DNA of 6,438 nt from Actinomycetota bacterium. GTDB lineage: Bacteria > Actinomycetota > Acidimicrobiia > Acidimicrobiales > CADCTF01. Each line of letters opens with the position of its first letter. Position 1 is the first letter of the stretch. Positions 535-6,438 of this stretch are shown piece after piece. The stretch covers positions 1 through 6,438 of the forward strand of contig JAHWJQ010000124.1 in assembly GCA_019348305.1 (NCBI GenBank). The letters are read 5' to 3'. The notes below the pieces were generated by a model, which worked only from the letters and a program-made list of their open reading frames with translations, was not told the DNA's origin and did not search any database. A program made the translations under genes and the position numbers.

Positions 535-591
535 TGAGCATGGCGATTGAGTAATTCGGCGGATGACGAACGCCCGGCAGCTCCCTACCGT
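535..591 (+). promoter_or_regulatory. activator-type promoter of the small ORF and hydrolase (site A)
   Basis: The block has TGAGCA (535-540), seven bases, then TGAGTA-N-TTC-N-GC-N-GATG (548-565), 20 bases, and a -10-like TACCGT (586-591). The same arrangement with the same spacing precedes the O-methyltransferase (4647-4703). Fifteen of the 18 bases at 548-565 match the other copy. There is no -35 hexamer. If transcription starts about 7 bases after the -10, near 598, the motif lies at about -50 to -33, where a class II activator overlaps the -35 position. The predicted start falls just upstream of the Shine-Dalgarno sequence at 605-612. The neighbouring LAL regulator is the obvious candidate to bind here, but that is inference. 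Confidence 0.62.
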
Positions 592-616: not shown

Positions 617-751
617 TTGTCCACTACGGCAGCTGCCGCTCCCGCGACCGGCTACGCACTCGATCCGACCGGCGCGGGCGCGCCTTTCCGCCGCATCGCC
701 GTCATCGCTATACAGGACCTTGGGCTCATCGTCGAGGGCACAGGAACGTGA
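617..751 (+). CDS. 44-residue small ORF, translationally coupled to the hydrolase
   Basis: I do not recognise this peptide. It begins at TTG, 5 bases after a near-consensus Shine-Dalgarno sequence, and ends in TGA at 749-751, overlapping the hydrolase ATG by one base (TGATG). The first half is Ala/Thr/Pro/Gly-rich. The second half is hydrophobic with a short basic pair (PFRRIAVIAIQDLGLIVEG), and the end is GTGT. It contains no Cys, and the hydrophobic run is interrupted by Gln-Asp, so a membrane helix is unlikely. About three quarters of codons end in G or C, consistent with coding. An in-frame ATG at 563 would extend it by 18 residues, but that ATG lies inside the promoter motif and upstream of the predicted transcription start. 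It may be a coupling leader that sets hydrolase expression, a functional small protein, or the remnant of a larger protein. Confidence 0.55.
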   Translation: MSTTAAAAPATGYALDPTGAGAPFRRIAVIAIQDLGLIVEGTGT

Positions 752-1638
752 TGCAGCAAGGATCCCACACCACCCTCATTGACGGGCGAGCGCAGGCCTT
801 CCACGTCCACGGGCATGGTCCGACCTGCGTAGTCCATCCCGGCGGGCCCGGGGCCGACTGGTCCTACATCCGCCTGCCGGCCCTGGAGCAGCAGTGCACC
901 GTCGTATACCTCGAGCCCCTCGGCACCGGCGCCTCGTTTCGCCTGGCAGACCCCGCGGGGTACACCCTCGTGTGCTACGCCCGACAGCTCGACCAGTTCA
1001 TCGAGCACCTCGGCATTGGACCCGTGCACGTCCTCGGCCATTCCCACGGAGGCTGGGTTGCCCTGACCCTCGCCGTGGAGCATCCGGACACCATCGCAGG
1101 CCTGGTCCTGCTCAACACTGCCGGACGTGCTGGGGATGACTGGCTGAACGAGATGATGGCGGGCCTCACCAGGTTCGCCGGCCAGCACAGCGACCGGCCG
1201 GACATTGCCGACGCCCTCGCCGCTTTCCAAGAAGAAGCGGCTGCCACCACCGACGATGAGCTGACCGCGCTGTACCGCCGGGAATTCCCGATCTTCTTCG
1301 CTGACTATTGGAGCCGCGAGGAAGAGTTCCGCCCAATCCGTGAGTCGGCCAGGAGGTTCGCCGGACCGAACGAGAGCTTCGGCGACACCCTGACCACCTA
1401 TGACCTGCGAGACCAACTCCCGGCGATCGACATACCCACCCTGGTCATCGCCGGTCGCCACGATGTCTTCTCGTCGCCACGGTTCAGCGAAGAGCTGCAC
1501 CAGGCGTTGCCCCTGTCGGAGTTGCTGATCCTGGAACGCAGCGGCCACTTCTCGCCAGTCGAGGAGCCCCAGGTCATCGCAGCCGCCGTCACCCGGTTCG
1601 TCACGCAGCCACGTCACGCCGACACCAGACGCGGCTAG
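751..1638 (+). CDS. alpha/beta hydrolase, proline-iminopeptidase-like
   Basis: This 295-residue protein has a complete alpha/beta-hydrolase catalytic set. The oxyanion-hole motif HPGGPG is at 29-34, the nucleophile elbow GHSHGG holds Ser98, the acid is Asp238 in AGRHD, and the base is His266 in SGHFSP. The lid region (about 125-215) is acidic and helical. The HGGPG-like motif and length fit the S33 peptidase/proline-iminopeptidase group, whose members cleave N-terminal residues or hydrolyse esters, amides and lactones; the substrate cannot be told from sequence. No signal peptide is seen, so it is probably cytoplasmic. I prefer ATG 751 (AGGA at 742-745); GTG 748 directly before it is possible. 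The frame is open back to an ATG at 547, but that extension is Arg-rich, covers the promoter and does not look like protein. The gene follows the small ORF with overlap and probably depends on coupled translation. Confidence 0.93.
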   Translation: MQQGSHTTLIDGRAQAFHVHGHGPTCVVHPGGPGADWSYIRLPALEQQCTVVYLEPLGTGASFRLADPAGYTLVCYARQLDQFIEHLGIGPVHVLGHSHGGWVALTLAVEHPDTIAGLVLLNTAGRAGDDWLNEMMAGLTRFAGQHSDRPDIADALAAFQEEAAATTDDELTALYRREFPIFFADYWSREEEFRPIRESARRFAGPNESFGDTLTTYDLRDQLPAIDIPTLVIAGRHDVFSSPRFSEELHQALPLSELLILERSGHFSPVEEPQVIAAAVTRFVTQPRHADTRRG

Positions 1639-1769: not shown

Positions 1770-4649
1770 GTGGAGATGCGTACGGAGCTGTTAGGGCGGG
1801 CACCGGAGCTGGCGGTGCTCACCGAGTGTCTGGCCGCCGCGGTCGAAGGCCGTCCGCAGGTGGTCTTGTGCCAGGGTGAGCCGGGGATTGGTAAGACGCG
1901 CCTCGCCGACGAGCTCGTCGCCTTGGCGGTGACGAAAGGCGCGCTGGGAGCGTGGGGGCTCGCCGCCGACTCGTCCGGTGCTCCCCCGTACTGGCCGTGG
2001 TGGCAGGCGCTGCGGGCCATCGCCAACACCGTCGACCTCGTGACCATATCGAGGGACCGACAGCTCAATGCCGATCTCGGGCGGCTGGCTCCGGATGTCT
2101 TCCAGTCGTCGGAGGCGGATCCCAGGGATGTCAGCTCGGCGGAGGATCGGTTCCGGCAGTTCGATGCCGTGGCGCGCCTGTTGCGACAGGTCTGTCTTCA
2201 GACCCCGCTGGTGATCGTGCTCGACGACGTGCACTGGGCGGACAAGCCCACGCTGCTACTCCTCCAGCACGTCGCCAGAGGCCTGACCGACGAACGGCTC
2301 TTGCTCGTAGTCAATTCACGCGTCACCGAGCAGAGGCACCGTGAGCTTTTCACACAGCTCTTGCGCGAGCCTCTCACGACGTCGATCCACCTTCAGGGCC
2401 TGCCGACGTCCGCTGTCCGCCAGCAGCTCGCATCTGTGTTGGGCCAGGACCTGGGCGACCGGGAGGTCGACGAGGTGTGGTCTCTAACCGACGGGAACCC
2501 CTTCTTCGTCGGGGAGGTCGGCCGGGCGATGGCGGACGCACGCGCCGGAGGGCGTTTTTCACCCGTCACTCCAACCGTACGCGACACCATCGCGGATCGG
2601 CTCGCGCGGCTGTCACCGGAGTGTGTCCGGTTCCTGCGTGCCGCCGCGATCGTGGGCCGGGAGTTCGCCGTCCCAGTCGTGTCGACCATGCTCGAGCTTC
2701 CGGCGGTCTCTGGCCTGGCCCTCGTCGACGAAGCCCGGGATGCCGGTCTCGTGGAGGCGAGCTCGGCGCCCCACGAACATCGGTTTGTGCACGCCCTCGT
2801 GCGCGACGCCATCGAGGCCGGCCTCGCCTCACCCCAACAGGTACGACTCCACCGACTGGCGGCAGATGCCATCGAGCGGCACTACGCCCACCGCCTCGGA
2901 GCCCACCTATTCGACGTCGCCCGGCACTGGGGCGAGGCGGCCGTGGAAGGTGAAGCGGAAACCGCCGCCAGATGGATGACGCGCGCCGCCGAGGAGGCGA
3001 TGCGGCAGCTTGCCTACGAAGAGGGGGCTCGGCTCTTCCGCCAGGCCCTCCAGGTCGGTGGCGCCGTTCTCGGCGACGACCACCGGTGCAATCTGCTGCT
3101 CGCGGCCGGGCGGGCGCTCCACCTTTCAGCCGATCTGAGCGGTCGTCTCGACGCCTGCCTCGAGGCGGCCGAGGTCGCCCGGAGGATGGGTCGTTCCGAT
3201 CTCCTTGCCGAGGCGGCGTTGGTGATGGAGGCTGTCGGCGATCCCTTCGACATCCCGACGAGGCGCTTGTGCGAGGAGGGGCTGGCCTCCCTGGGCCCGG
3301 AACCGACAGCGCTTCGCGCCAGACTGACCGCCAGGTTCGTCGAAACGTTCATCTTCCTCCGGGATATCGAACGCGTTGCCGCGGCGAGTGAGCAGGCACT
3401 GGAGATGGCGGCGCAGTGCGGCGACCGGCGGGCACTGGCCGCCGCCCTGCGAGCCCGTCAGCTCGTGTGCTCGGGGCCCGACGGCCTCGAAGAGCGGATG
3501 CGCCTGGCAGAGCGCATGTTGACCTTGAGCCAACAGACCGCCGACCCGCAGACGGAGATGTGGGCGCGCCTCTGGCAGATCGACGCATCGCTGGAGCGCG
3601 GTGACCTGGTGAGGGCCGGTGCCGACACTGACGCGCTCGCCCTATGCGCGCAGCAGGTGCGTGGACCACTGGCGCGTTTCGAGGTGCTCCGTTGCCGGGC
3701 GGTGCTGGCACAGGCCCAGGGCCGGTTTGCCGACGCCCGCCGCCTCGAGGCTGAGGCGTTCACCGTGCTGGCGCCGACCGATTACGACGTCCGGTTCACA
3801 TTCCGGGGAGCACTGTCGACGTCTCTCGGTCACCACGTCGGCCACGACGCGGCATCGCTGGCCGATGCTGGGTACGCCGACGCCCCGGAGGAGCACGCTC
3901 AGGTGCTCGGGCTCATCGGCCGGGTGGCCGTCGCGTTCGCCTTGGTGTCGGCCGGCAAACTGGACGAGGCGGCGGCCATGTACCGCTCGGCCGGGCCAGT
4001 GAGCAGCTGGCAACCACCGCCACACGTGGTGTTGTGCGCCTACACGTCGGGTCTTGCGGCCGCCGTGGCATTGGCGGAGTCCGCCGACGTCGCCGAACTG
4101 CACGATCTCCTCGAGCCTTACCGCGGCCACCACGTAGCCAGCGGCACCAGTGCCATGGTGTATTGGGGACCCGTCGAGCTGTGGCTCGGGGTGGCGGCGC
4201 ACCACCTGGGCCGGCTCAACGAGGCAGTCATCGACCTCGAGCAGGCCGACCACGCCTGTGCGCGCAACGGGGCTGCTGGATTCAGGGTCGAAGCGCAGTA
4301 CGAGCTCGCCGCGGTCCTCGCCCACCGAACGGGACCGGGCGATCTGCATCGGGCGAGGTCGTTGCTCAGTGCCGCAGGCAGAACGGCCCGCTCCCTGGGC
4401 ATGACACCATTCGTCGCTCGGATCTCCGAACTGACCGGCCAGCTCGACCAGGCGGCCGAGGCGGATCAGCTGACGCGGCGCGAGCGCGAGGTAGCCGAGC
4501 TGGTGGCGCAAGGCTTGACCAACCGGGAGATCGCTGATCGGCTATTCCTGTCCGAACGCACTGCCCAGAACCACCTGCAGCACGTGCTGACGAAGCTCGG
4601 GCTGGCGAACCGGAGCCAGGTAGCAGTCTGGGTCACGACCCGGAAATGA
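1770..4649 (+). CDS. LAL-type transcriptional regulator (AAA ATPase, helical repeats, LuxR HTH)
   Basis: This 959-residue protein has the LAL (large ATP-binding LuxR) layout. An N-terminal AAA-type ATPase carries Walker A GEPGIGKT (36-43), the family-typical SSGAPPYWPWWQALR (68-82), and Walker B LVIVLDD followed by VHWAD (147-158). A long helical, TPR-like middle section (about 350-890) follows. The C-terminus is a LuxR HTH (901-959: LTRREREVAELVAQG, then NREIADRLFLSERTAQNH). Such proteins are usually activators of neighbouring genes; ATP binding and an unknown ligand are thought to control them. GTG 1770 is taken as the start; ATG 1776 is equally possible, since the GGTGGAG before it has no spacer and neither start has an ideal ribosome binding site. 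Codon 8 from GTG (1791-1793) is TTA, the only in-frame TTA I found, suggesting bldA dependence if the host is Streptomyces-like. It stands between the two promoters sharing the TGAGTA motif, which are its likely targets. Confidence 0.97.
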   Translation: MEMRTELLGRAPELAVLTECLAAAVEGRPQVVLCQGEPGIGKTRLADELVALAVTKGALGAWGLAADSSGAPPYWPWWQALRAIANTVDLVTISRDRQLNADLGRLAPDVFQSSEADPRDVSSAEDRFRQFDAVARLLRQVCLQTPLVIVLDDVHWADKPTLLLLQHVARGLTDERLLLVVNSRVTEQRHRELFTQLLREPLTTSIHLQGLPTSAVRQQLASVLGQDLGDREVDEVWSLTDGNPFFVGEVGRAMADARAGGRFSPVTPTVRDTIADRLARLSPECVRFLRAAAIVGREFAVPVVSTMLELPAVSGLALVDEARDAGLVEASSAPHEHRFVHALVRDAIEAGLASPQQVRLHRLAADAIERHYAHRLGAHLFDVARHWGEAAVEGEAETAARWMTRAAEEAMRQLAYEEGARLFRQALQVGGAVLGDDHRCNLLLAAGRALHLSADLSGRLDACLEAAEVARRMGRSDLLAEAALVMEAVGDPFDIPTRRLCEEGLASLGPEPTALRARLTARFVETFIFLRDIERVAAASEQALEMAAQCGDRRALAAALRARQLVCSGPDGLEERMRLAERMLTLSQQTADPQTEMWARLWQIDASLERGDLVRAGADTDALALCAQQVRGPLARFEVLRCRAVLAQAQGRFADARRLEAEAFTVLAPTDYDVRFTFRGALSTSLGHHVGHDAASLADAGYADAPEEHAQVLGLIGRVAVAFALVSAGKLDEAAAMYRSAGPVSSWQPPPHVVLCAYTSGLAAAVALAESADVAELHDLLEPYRGHHVASGTSAMVYWGPVELWLGVAAHHLGRLNEAVIDLEQADHACARNGAAGFRVEAQYELAAVLAHRTGPGDLHRARSLLSAAGRTARSLGMTPFVARISELTGQLDQAAEADQLTRREREVAELVAQGLTNREIADRLFLSERTAQNHLQHVLTKLGLANRSQVAVWVTTRK

Positions 4650-4703
4650 GCAGTGGATCTGAGTAGTTCTGCCGATGCGCGTCGGCCGCCCCTTTCGTAG
4701 GGT
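4647..4703 (+). promoter_or_regulatory. activator-type promoter of the O-methyltransferase (site B)
   Basis: This is the second copy of the block at 535-591. It has TGAGCA (4647-4652), seven bases, TGAGTA-N-TTC-N-GC-N-GATG (4660-4677), 20 bases, then a -10-like TAGGGT (4698-4703). It fills the 60-base gap between the regulator and the methyltransferase. The first TGA of the block is the regulator's own stop codon. No -35 hexamer is visible, as expected for an activator-dependent promoter. The predicted transcription start, about 7 bases after the -10, falls on or next to the ATG at 4710. Confidence 0.65.
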
Positions 4704-4709
4704 CACAGC

Positions 4710-5711
4710 ATGTCCACGATCACAACGACAGAGTTCCCGCACGAGACCGTCTGGAACATCACGACCGCTGGTGCGTCGGCCAGATCGCTGCACGTCGTCG
4801 CCGACCTCGGCGTCGCCGATCACATCTACGAAGCGCCCGTGCCCGTCGCGGAGCTGGGCGCCCGGTGCGGCGTTGACGCCGAAGCGCTCGACAGGGTGCT
4901 GCGACTGCTCGTCGCCCACGGCATCTTCCAACGTCGTGACGATGGCTATCAGCACACGGAGTCGTCTCGGCTGCTGAGGAGTGACAACGCGATGTCGATG
5001 CGTGCCTTCGCTCGTATGTTCGGCTCGCCGCTGTTCTGGGACAGCCTCGGCCGGCTCGACCACTCCGTGCGCACCGTCGCTCCCGCCGCCGAACTGGTGG
5101 AACCGAAGGGCTTCTGGGCCTATCTGCAGGTGCATCCCGAGGAAGCCAGGATCTTCGACGAGGCGATGACCTCCAAGGCGTACGCTGACGTCGCCGCGGT
5201 GGTCGACGCGTACGACTTCCGGGCGTTCCACACGATCGCCGACATCGGAGGCGGGCGGGGGCACCTGCTTGAGGCGGTGCTCGAAGCAACCCCTACCGCA
5301 CGAGGCGTGTTGTTCGATCTACCAAGCGTGATCGAATCGCTGGGCGTCCCGTCGGACCGGCTGACCCACCACATGGGTGACTTCTTCGTCGACCCGCTTC
5401 CCCGGGCCGACGCCTACGTGCTCATGGAGGTGATCCACGACTGGGCCGACCCAGAGGCCTTGGCGATCCTGCGCGGGATTCGCCGAGCTGCATCGGCTGG
5501 GGCGGTACTGCTCATCATCGAGGGCGTCATGTCGGAGGACGAAGCCGACGCGCGCGTCCACACCCTCGACGTCGTCATGTTGACCGTAACAGGGGGACGT
5601 GAGCGCACGGCTCGCGGGCTCGGCGCGCTGCTGCACAGCGCCGACTTCCGCGTCAGCACGGTCATGGAGACACACGGGCCCATCCGAATCGTGGAAGCGC
5701 TCGCCATCTGA
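4710..5711 (+). CDS. SAM-dependent O-methyltransferase, family 2 (acetylserotonin/DnrK-like type)
   Basis: This 333-residue protein has the full length and layout of family-2 O-methyltransferases. An N-terminal winged-helix dimerisation domain (about 12-90) is followed by a Rossmann SAM-binding domain. SAM motif I is IADIGGGRGHLL (176-187). Asp203 in FDLP is placed to bind the cofactor ribose, and GDFF (223-226) is the adenine-side motif. EVIHDWAD (240-247) carries His243 at the position of the usual catalytic base. The family methylates phenolic or enolic hydroxyls, often on aromatic polyketides in actinomycetes; some members have turned to hydroxylation or decarboxylation chemistry. The substrate is not evident here. 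The start at 4710 follows a -10-like hexamer with only 6 bases between, so the mRNA may be leaderless; AGGG at 4699-4702 is an alternative weak ribosome binding site. It probably forms a transcript with the ABM-like gene 58 bases downstream. Confidence 0.96.
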   Translation: MSTITTTEFPHETVWNITTAGASARSLHVVADLGVADHIYEAPVPVAELGARCGVDAEALDRVLRLLVAHGIFQRRDDGYQHTESSRLLRSDNAMSMRAFARMFGSPLFWDSLGRLDHSVRTVAPAAELVEPKGFWAYLQVHPEEARIFDEAMTSKAYADVAAVVDAYDFRAFHTIADIGGGRGHLLEAVLEATPTARGVLFDLPSVIESLGVPSDRLTHHMGDFFVDPLPRADAYVLMEVIHDWADPEALAILRGIRRAASAGAVLLIIEGVMSEDEADARVHTLDVVMLTVTGGRERTARGLGALLHSADFRVSTVMETHGPIRIVEALAI

Positions 5712-6169: not shown

Positions 6170-6418
6170 CTACTGAACGCGTCGACGATAGGTACCCCGA
6201 TCGACGCGAGCCAGGTCGGGGAACACAGTCGCATGGTGGCCCGGAGCGTCGCTGCACATCCGGCTCGTGACATGGGTACGGATGGTTGTCGCCTTGTACT
6301 GCGGGTTTCGGGACAGCGTCTCCCTCACAATTCCGTCGATCCTGAAGTCACGGCGACCATGCCGTCGCTCCAGGCGGGTGAAGGCGTCGAGGACGGCGCC
6401 TCGGCAGATCCGCATCAT
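6170..6418 (-). CDS. small conserved winged-helix-like protein (DUF7669-like), possibly 5'-partial
   Basis: This minus-strand frame encodes 82 residues from paired ATGs (6418 and 6415) to TAG (6170-6172). It has a helix AVLDAFTRLERRHG, a segment FRIDGIVRETL, then TIRTHVTSRMC, APGHHA and DLARVDRGTYRRR. From memory, the T-I-R-T-H-V-x-S-R-M-C segment followed by a D-L-x-R-V-x-R-G-x-Y/F ending is a conserved actinobacterial pattern catalogued as DUF7669. The fold looks like a small winged helix, with TIRTHVTSRMC as a plausible recognition helix, so nucleic-acid binding is likely but unproven. The domain is known to me both alone and attached to nucleases or other effectors. The frame stays open upstream to the window edge and no good ribosome binding site precedes 6418, so the true start may lie outside. 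It converges on the ABM-like gene and is probably not part of the cassette. Confidence 0.7.
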   Translation of the reverse strand: MMRICRGAVLDAFTRLERRHGRRDFRIDGIVRETLSRNPQYKATTIRTHVTSRMCSDAPGHHATVFPDLARVDRGTYRRRVQ

Positions 6419-6438
6419 CGAGCATTCAGCCTGGGTGG

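Follow-up and report, generated by a model that had tools for sequence, protein, structure and literature searches.

LAL regulators are encoded in many actinomycete antibiotic and secondary-metabolite clusters (PMC9628970), and few of them have been given an operator in the parts of the literature covered here. The archetype, MalT of E. coli, combines an ATPase with a LuxR-type HTH and acts on direct repeats (PMC9628970, PMC6099782); its box is given as GGA[TG]GA (PMC9628970), and the boxes stand in direct-repeat pairs (PMC6099782). TpdR of Rhodococcus jostii TMP1, an LAL activator of 788 aa, acts at the P-TTMP operator through two direct repeats of 15 nt with a 13-nt spacing, the nearer of which, at -51 to -37, covers a -35 (PMC6099782). 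LAL activators with direct-repeat operators are therefore already known (PMC6099782, PMC9628970). Two further systems offer a partial comparison. The MilO operator of the mildiomycin cluster serves a LuxR-family activator and consists of imperfect direct repeats, but these are three TGTCN3CGGT units located 142 bp before the start site (PMC11784345). SCO6993 of S. coelicolor is an LAL-class regulator with one LuxR-type HTH that represses antibiotic regulators and is associated with short palindromes, for which a consensus could not be predicted (PMC9628970).

The window, that is, the whole stretch of 6,438 nucleotides analysed here, encodes one LAL regulator between two copies of a tandem direct-repeat element (Table 1). 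The two sites are very probably operators of this LAL, which would act as an activator comparable to MalT and TpdR. The repeated unit is TGAG[TC]A, which sets the element apart from the operators of MalT and TpdR. The nearer TpdR repeat lies close to the place of the half-sites and GGATG block in our sites, and its proposed sequence, TnnAAnnGCGGAnTC, contains GCGGA, as do most sites here; the accessible part of that report describes no TGAGTA half-sites (PMC6099782). Direct repeats of TnnAAnnGCGGAnTC were not found in the two window sites, where a single GCGGA block occurs in site 1 and none in site 2, and the AA and final TC positions of the repeat are missing from site 1. Direct repeats of the MalT type are likewise absent from the two sites: GGATGA occurs once, in site 1 (561-566), site 2 has CGATGC at that place, and the relatives mostly have GGATG or GGATT followed by other letters, whereas the invariant element here is TGAG. 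The consensus of the operator, its placement within the 3' terminus of the regulator gene and its spread across the phylum were not met in a literature search of the open part of PubMed Central.

Table 1. Positions of the operator elements and genes of the window, and of related sites in genomes without an LAL of the same clade
Feature	Position	Strand	Remarks
Operator 1, first half-site TGAGCA	535-540	+	Matches exactly; one of the 24 sites in the alignment
Operator 1, second half-site TGAGTA and GGCGGATG block	548-565	+	
Operator 1, predicted -10 TACCGT	586-591	+	TANNGT columns kept in the site alignment
Short ORF, 44 aa	617-751	+	TTG start after AAGGAGG; no Pfam match
Alpha/beta hydrolase (Abhydrolase_1)	751-1638	+	
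LAL regulator, 959 aa	1770-4649	+	N-terminal AAA_16, C-terminal GerE
Operator 2, first half-site TGAGCA	4647-4652	+	Its TGA is the LAL stop codon (4647-4649)
Operator 2, second half-site TGAGTA and TGCCGATG block	4660-4677	+	
Operator 2, predicted -10 TAGGGT	4698-4703	+	Followed after 6 bases by the O-methyltransferase ATG (4710)
O-methyltransferase (Methyltransf_2 and Dimerisation)	4710-5711	+	
Small protein, 88 aa	5770-6036	+	Second in order behind operator 2; Pfam gave no match
Related sites before a small gene	L255:6054-6116, L256:6473-6537, L258:6961-7024, L259:6625-6685		YiaAB by Pfam in L255, similar elsewhere

The regulator carries two domains expected of the LAL family, an N-terminal ATPase (AAA_16, E 2.6e-23, residues 6-180) and a C-terminal LuxR/GerE HTH (GerE, E 1.1e-18, residues 899-954), and its Walker A sequence GEPGIGKTR is invariant or nearly so across the alignment of LAL homologues. 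It is the only one of the six window ORFs scanned that carries a DNA-binding domain, as the earlier note had supposed. The O-methyltransferase is the likely target of operator 2, and the hydrolase that of operator 1. The short ORF that precedes the hydrolase has a good ribosome site, and its stop overlaps the hydrolase ATG (TGATG); it is possibly a coupling leader. Because the LAL gene follows the hydrolase on the same strand after 131 bp, it may be read from operator 1 as well. We judge the 88-aa protein to be ABM-like by our own reading of it. An ORF on the minus strand (6170-6436) matches DUF7669 (E 1.5e-7) and reads towards this small gene.

The pattern TGAGCA-N7-TGAGTA-N-TTC-N-GC-N-GATG, with 21 fixed bases, matches the plus strand without mismatch at 535-565 and 4647-4677, and no further copy was found in the window even when three mismatches were allowed. 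In 200 dinucleotide shuffles of the window the mean number of matches was 0.00 and the largest 0. In both sites GATG is followed by 20 bases (566-585 and 4678-4697) and then by TA-N2-GT, so that the shared two-part motif with a -10 at exact spacing, as first described in the earlier note, is present twice where none is expected by chance. A profile of 24 operators, whose training set includes both window sites, scores 46.4 bits at 534-600 and 36.4 bits at 4646-4711, and the next place in the window reaches 6.4 bits. A consensus promoter scan of the window returned no sigma-70-type site. The predicted -10 of operator 2 stands so close to the ATG at 4710, with 6 bases between them, that a leaderless message is suggested. 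The two copies diverge in the stretches that separate and flank the blocks, which makes a recent duplication improbable, and the blocks with their spacing recur beside distant LAL relatives; both observations agree with the view that the blocks are selected protein contacts.

At the 3' end of LAL genes whose products are about 35-58% identical to the window regulator, in Kribbella, Lentzea, Umezawaea and others, we found the element TGAGTA-N6/7-TGAGTA-N-TYCGGCGGATK-N19/20-TANNGT. A first contig scan had yielded LAL relatives of at most 43% identity among the matches listed, and a plasmid search distant LALs only; the closer relatives came from genome searches. When an 18-base core was searched in 79 LAL-homologue loci, it matched once with one mismatch and three times with two, and all four matches lie directly 3' of the LAL gene (Umezawaea, two Lentzea and one Kribbella). 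The core is present with more changes in a second Kribbella locus (L001) and was not found after the LAL gene in Actinosynnema (L005) or Pseudonocardia (L049). In each of the five loci with the core, another TGAGTA precedes it by 12-13 bases and a TANNNT follows it after about 20, both outside the searched stretch. An alignment of 24 sites, two from the window and 22 from beside the LAL genes of relatives, places the half-sites among the most conserved columns: TGAG of the first and GAG of the second are invariant. The next most conserved columns are a C, a G and an A within the GGCGGATG block, and TANNGT is kept in most sites; a -10 is absent from some, namely L138, L140 and L141. Two TGAG[T/C]A units thus stand at a kept spacing across the aligned sites, which upholds the proposal of tandem half-sites.

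The surrounding genes are partly conserved. Locus L262 repeats the window order of LAL, operator, O-methyltransferase (53%) and small protein (49%), L237 has the order LAL, operator and O-methyltransferase, and L264 has an extra ORF between operator and O-methyltransferase. In the loci read, though uncounted, the gene 3' of the operator is often a small ABM-like protein or an O-methyltransferase. A glyoxalase-fold gene follows the operator in L232, and the ABM-like protein of L230 matches Pfam ABM below the cut-off only.

Placement relative to the regulator gene was analysed in 48 LALs, a set that leaves out L113, L132, L155 and the ETH group (L143, L144, L148, L150 and L156). An operator lies within -60 to +190 of the LAL stop in 30 of the 48 by a regular expression that missed L111 (26.2 bits), and in 28 of these 30 it overlaps the end of the gene. 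The stop falls in the first half-site in 13 LALs (12 as its TGA and one as TAG), a type to which operator 2 of the window belongs, in the second half-site in four, and further on in 11 (offsets -32 and -50). As the overlaps, at offsets -50, -32, -17, -13, -4 and 0, occur in all three reading registers, it is the DNA and not the peptide that is conserved. The half-sites are spaced by 12 bases in 18 LALs and by 13 in 12. Operators away from an LAL stop are found at site 1 of the window and in L219 (11505), L220, L222 (5563), L228 and L229. In L219 such an operator, at 9721, precedes a FAD/BBE oxidoreductase gene, with similar ORFs in L220 and L222. Divergent operator pairs separate the LAL from an amidohydrolase gene in L229 and from a similar ORF in L228.

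To relate sites to regulators genome-wide, genomes of relatives were scanned with a sequence-only model (R1) trained on the 24 sites; sites with E<=1e-4 were called strong, and genomes with an LAL relative at E<=1e-100 LAL-positive. Such relatives were found in 16 of 38 genomes in the family of the Kribbella locus L053 (genome G006), 29 of 200 in the family of the Umezawaea locus (G004), 2 of 247 in the class of the Acidimicrobiales MAG locus (G009) and 6 of 396 in the phylum sample. Strong sites were present in 14/16 LAL-positive against 1/22 LAL-negative genomes of the first family (15/38 in all; Fisher p 1.7e-7), 16/29 against 3/171 of the second (19/200; p 3e-13) and 4/6 against 4/390 of the phylum sample (8/396; p 1e-6), with the LAL-positive side favoured by the model because its 22 training sites outside the window were picked beside LALs of the same families, and with absences in the G004-family, class and phylum samples of limited sensitivity because only 2-4 LAL and 12-25 site candidates were scored per genome. 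In the class sample, one of the two LAL-positive genomes (G383) and none of the 245 others has a strong site, which is no independent support for presence since G383 is a training genome. The association persists when the LAL-positive training genomes are removed from the first family (4/6 against 1/22; p 0.003) and the second (6/19 against 3/171; p 3e-5), and in the phylum sample without G006, which also belongs to the first family (3/5 against 4/390; p 3e-5). G006 and G248 each stand in two samples, a slight overlap. Strong sites therefore track the LAL gene genome-wide, and the possibility raised in the earlier note, that the motif is scattered without relation to LAL genes, does not apply to them. 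These counts come from the full model only, because the core motif is less specific: with one mismatch allowed, it turned up 43 times in 13 genomes and its reversed form, the control, 12 times, so that it exceeds the control, but most of its matches do not lie near LAL genes; four of the six matches without mismatch are LAL-linked. Weak model matches (E > 1e-4) were not counted; in both families they are found in many genomes, LAL-bearing and LAL-free alike.

The individual genomes add detail to these figures. Two LAL genes accompany two strong sites in each of G021 and G576. Among the four LAL-negative genomes of the two families that have a site, pieces of an LAL stand immediately before the site in G020, an LAL split in two precedes the site in G217, and G130 has an LAL in two frames on another contig; in G183, whose site is weak, no LAL was found at E<=1e-25. 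LAL-positive genomes without a strong site number 2/16 (G027 and G044), 13/29 and 2/6, and several of them have a different helix or a truncated gene. The LALs L119 (in G027) and L128 have an Asn helix without a strong local site, and G027 retains, with its Asn helix, a TGAGCA..TGAGTGGTTGA trace.

In L234 (G044; LAL 9016-6704, O-methyltransferase 6699-6142) the LAL continues into the latter half of the O-methyltransferase, with the HTH and the operator both gone. In L322 (G097), near 4804, the HTH end has similarly been lost along with the operator and the beginning of the following gene. In both loci the region between regulator and target has apparently been deleted.

A comparison with NarL points to the part of the LAL that may read the half-sites. 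The HTH of the LAL aligns without gaps to NarL (1JE8), so that its TA-Q-N-H-x-Q falls on TV-K-V-H-V-K of NarL, in which Lys188, Val189 and Lys192 are base contacts. Of the LALs with Asn at the place of Val189, 34/37 carry the operator, against 2/15 of the others, where an operator means at least 25 bits, so that L128 (16.3), L134 (22.2), L135 (19.6) and L252 (13.6) count as without. The comparison leaves out L113, L132 and L155, which have no intact HTH, the window itself, and second or locus-less LAL copies; for L129, L130 and L151 the score comes from the longer stretches L219, L220 and L233. Mapped onto a 52-LAL tree, the operator label requires six changes, against a mean of 14.0 when shuffled, and none of 500 shuffles was as low. 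After correction for phylogeny, with the HTH columns removed from the tree, four independent pairs gave a mean of 2.7 in agreement and 0.1 against (p 0.25); with the pairs taken the other way, five gave 2.5 agreeing and 0.0 against. With four independent pairs, this association in the sequences is suggestive rather than phylogenetically proven.

The letters of the half-sites vary with the helix. Three non-Asn LALs with ESH or ETH helices (G182, G644 and G323) have TCCGTA at the same place, followed by 6-7 bases, TCCGTG, CCAGTA or TACGTA, and then CGGATG or CGATG. The GGATG block is thus retained although both half-sites change, which is what a helix that reads nothing but the half-sites would produce. 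L135, whose helix is GNH, shows TGAGCA-N6-GGAGCG with an altered block, and the EQH pair L111 and L112 has a weaker operator. No variant of the TCCGTA type was found in the other non-Asn LALs L133, L145, L153, L154 and L266. We also considered GGATG as a third half-site; the same helix is unlikely to read it, since it is kept where the half-sites become TCCGTA-like.

Based on these features, a working scheme can be proposed for the two sites. The LAL would sense a small molecule and, as MalT does, ATP, and oligomerise, upon which the GerE domains of at least two subunits would contact the direct half-sites. From the place of the -10, starts are predicted near 598 and 4710, which puts these half-sites at about -63 and -50. 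The GGATG block (about -40 to -33) would lie over a poor -35 and could help to hold RNA polymerase. Activation is suggested as the direction of regulation, by analogy and because the promoter has no proper -35. Operator 2 would then drive a leaderless message for the O-methyltransferase and the small protein, and operator 1 would drive the short ORF and the hydrolase, perhaps reading into the LAL gene with positive feedback. The LAL operator is best read as controlling a small local regulon. With a consensus whose architecture is fixed and linked to a helix residue, direct tests of binding, regulon and specificity can start from sequence, and the LAL with its operator offers a ready regulator-promoter pair.

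The LAL was named as the reader of the sites in the earlier note, and this part of its proposal is largely supported: co-occurrence and the covariation with the helix speak for it, and related sites in four genomes in which the LAL clade was not found speak partly against it. An unlikely alternative is that the sites are read by another NarL/LuxR-type regulator encoded elsewhere, the LAL being a mere target or neighbour. In G609, G716, G795 and G826 a related site of 28-41 bits precedes a small gene of the YiaAB type (Table 1), and no LAL of the same clade was found in these genomes; the sites have the two-part structure without a TA-type -10. Together with G183, these genomes hold 26-49 HTH matches each at E<=1e-6 (187 in all), and among the 30 inspected a TVKNH helix occurs in three (G716, G795 and G826), in proteins that we judge to be DevR-like, and a TVENH helix in one (G183). 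As such proteins exist there, another protein with an Asn helix could read a similar site, and a TVKNH-helix HTH protein is one candidate for the regulator of the YiaAB-gene sites. For the window and its relatives, however, this explanation has to contend with strong sites that track the LAL gene even without the training genomes, with a helix of the LAL itself that varies with the half-site letters, and with an operator that merges into the tail of its LAL gene in 28 of the 30 LALs with one nearby.

It is very improbable that the element is an LAL-independent promoter for an alternative sigma factor with the GGATG block as its -35. The -10 is conserved in most aligned sites, and the letters GGAT and CGT[TC] presumably resemble those of ECF promoters. 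From GGATG to GTT or GTC, however, there are about 23 bases, and the spacing typical of ECF promoters is shorter; moreover, the upstream half-sites are among the most conserved columns, some aligned sites have no -10, and no sigma factor was found among the six window ORFs scanned. The least probable reading takes the element not for an operator but for a stretch at the LAL 3' end that is conserved as RNA or as coding sequence. The overlap with the coding end would be natural to it, but it is at odds with overlaps in all three registers and at several offsets, with the sites away from LAL stops in the window and five other loci, with an Rfam search of the window that returned no match, and with half-sites that are direct and not inverted repeats.

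The reading of the two sites as operators of the LAL may extend further, to self-contained cassettes across the phylum in which the LAL gene ends inside its own tandem operator, regulator, operator and following promoter make up a single mobile unit, and one or two recognition-helix residues give the half-site letters (Asn with TGAGTA, Ser or Thr with TCCGTA). We advance this tentatively and lean slightly towards doubt; if true, it would provide a usable recognition code for GerE-type domains and predict targets for many unstudied LALs. Because the regulator gene contains the operator in its own 3' end, the regulator, its site and the gene behind it would tend to move as a group. A short GerE-like remnant in L219 (9591-9716; 64% to the LAL HTH) lies directly before a further operator (9721-9778), which suggests a decayed duplicate of an LAL-operator cassette.
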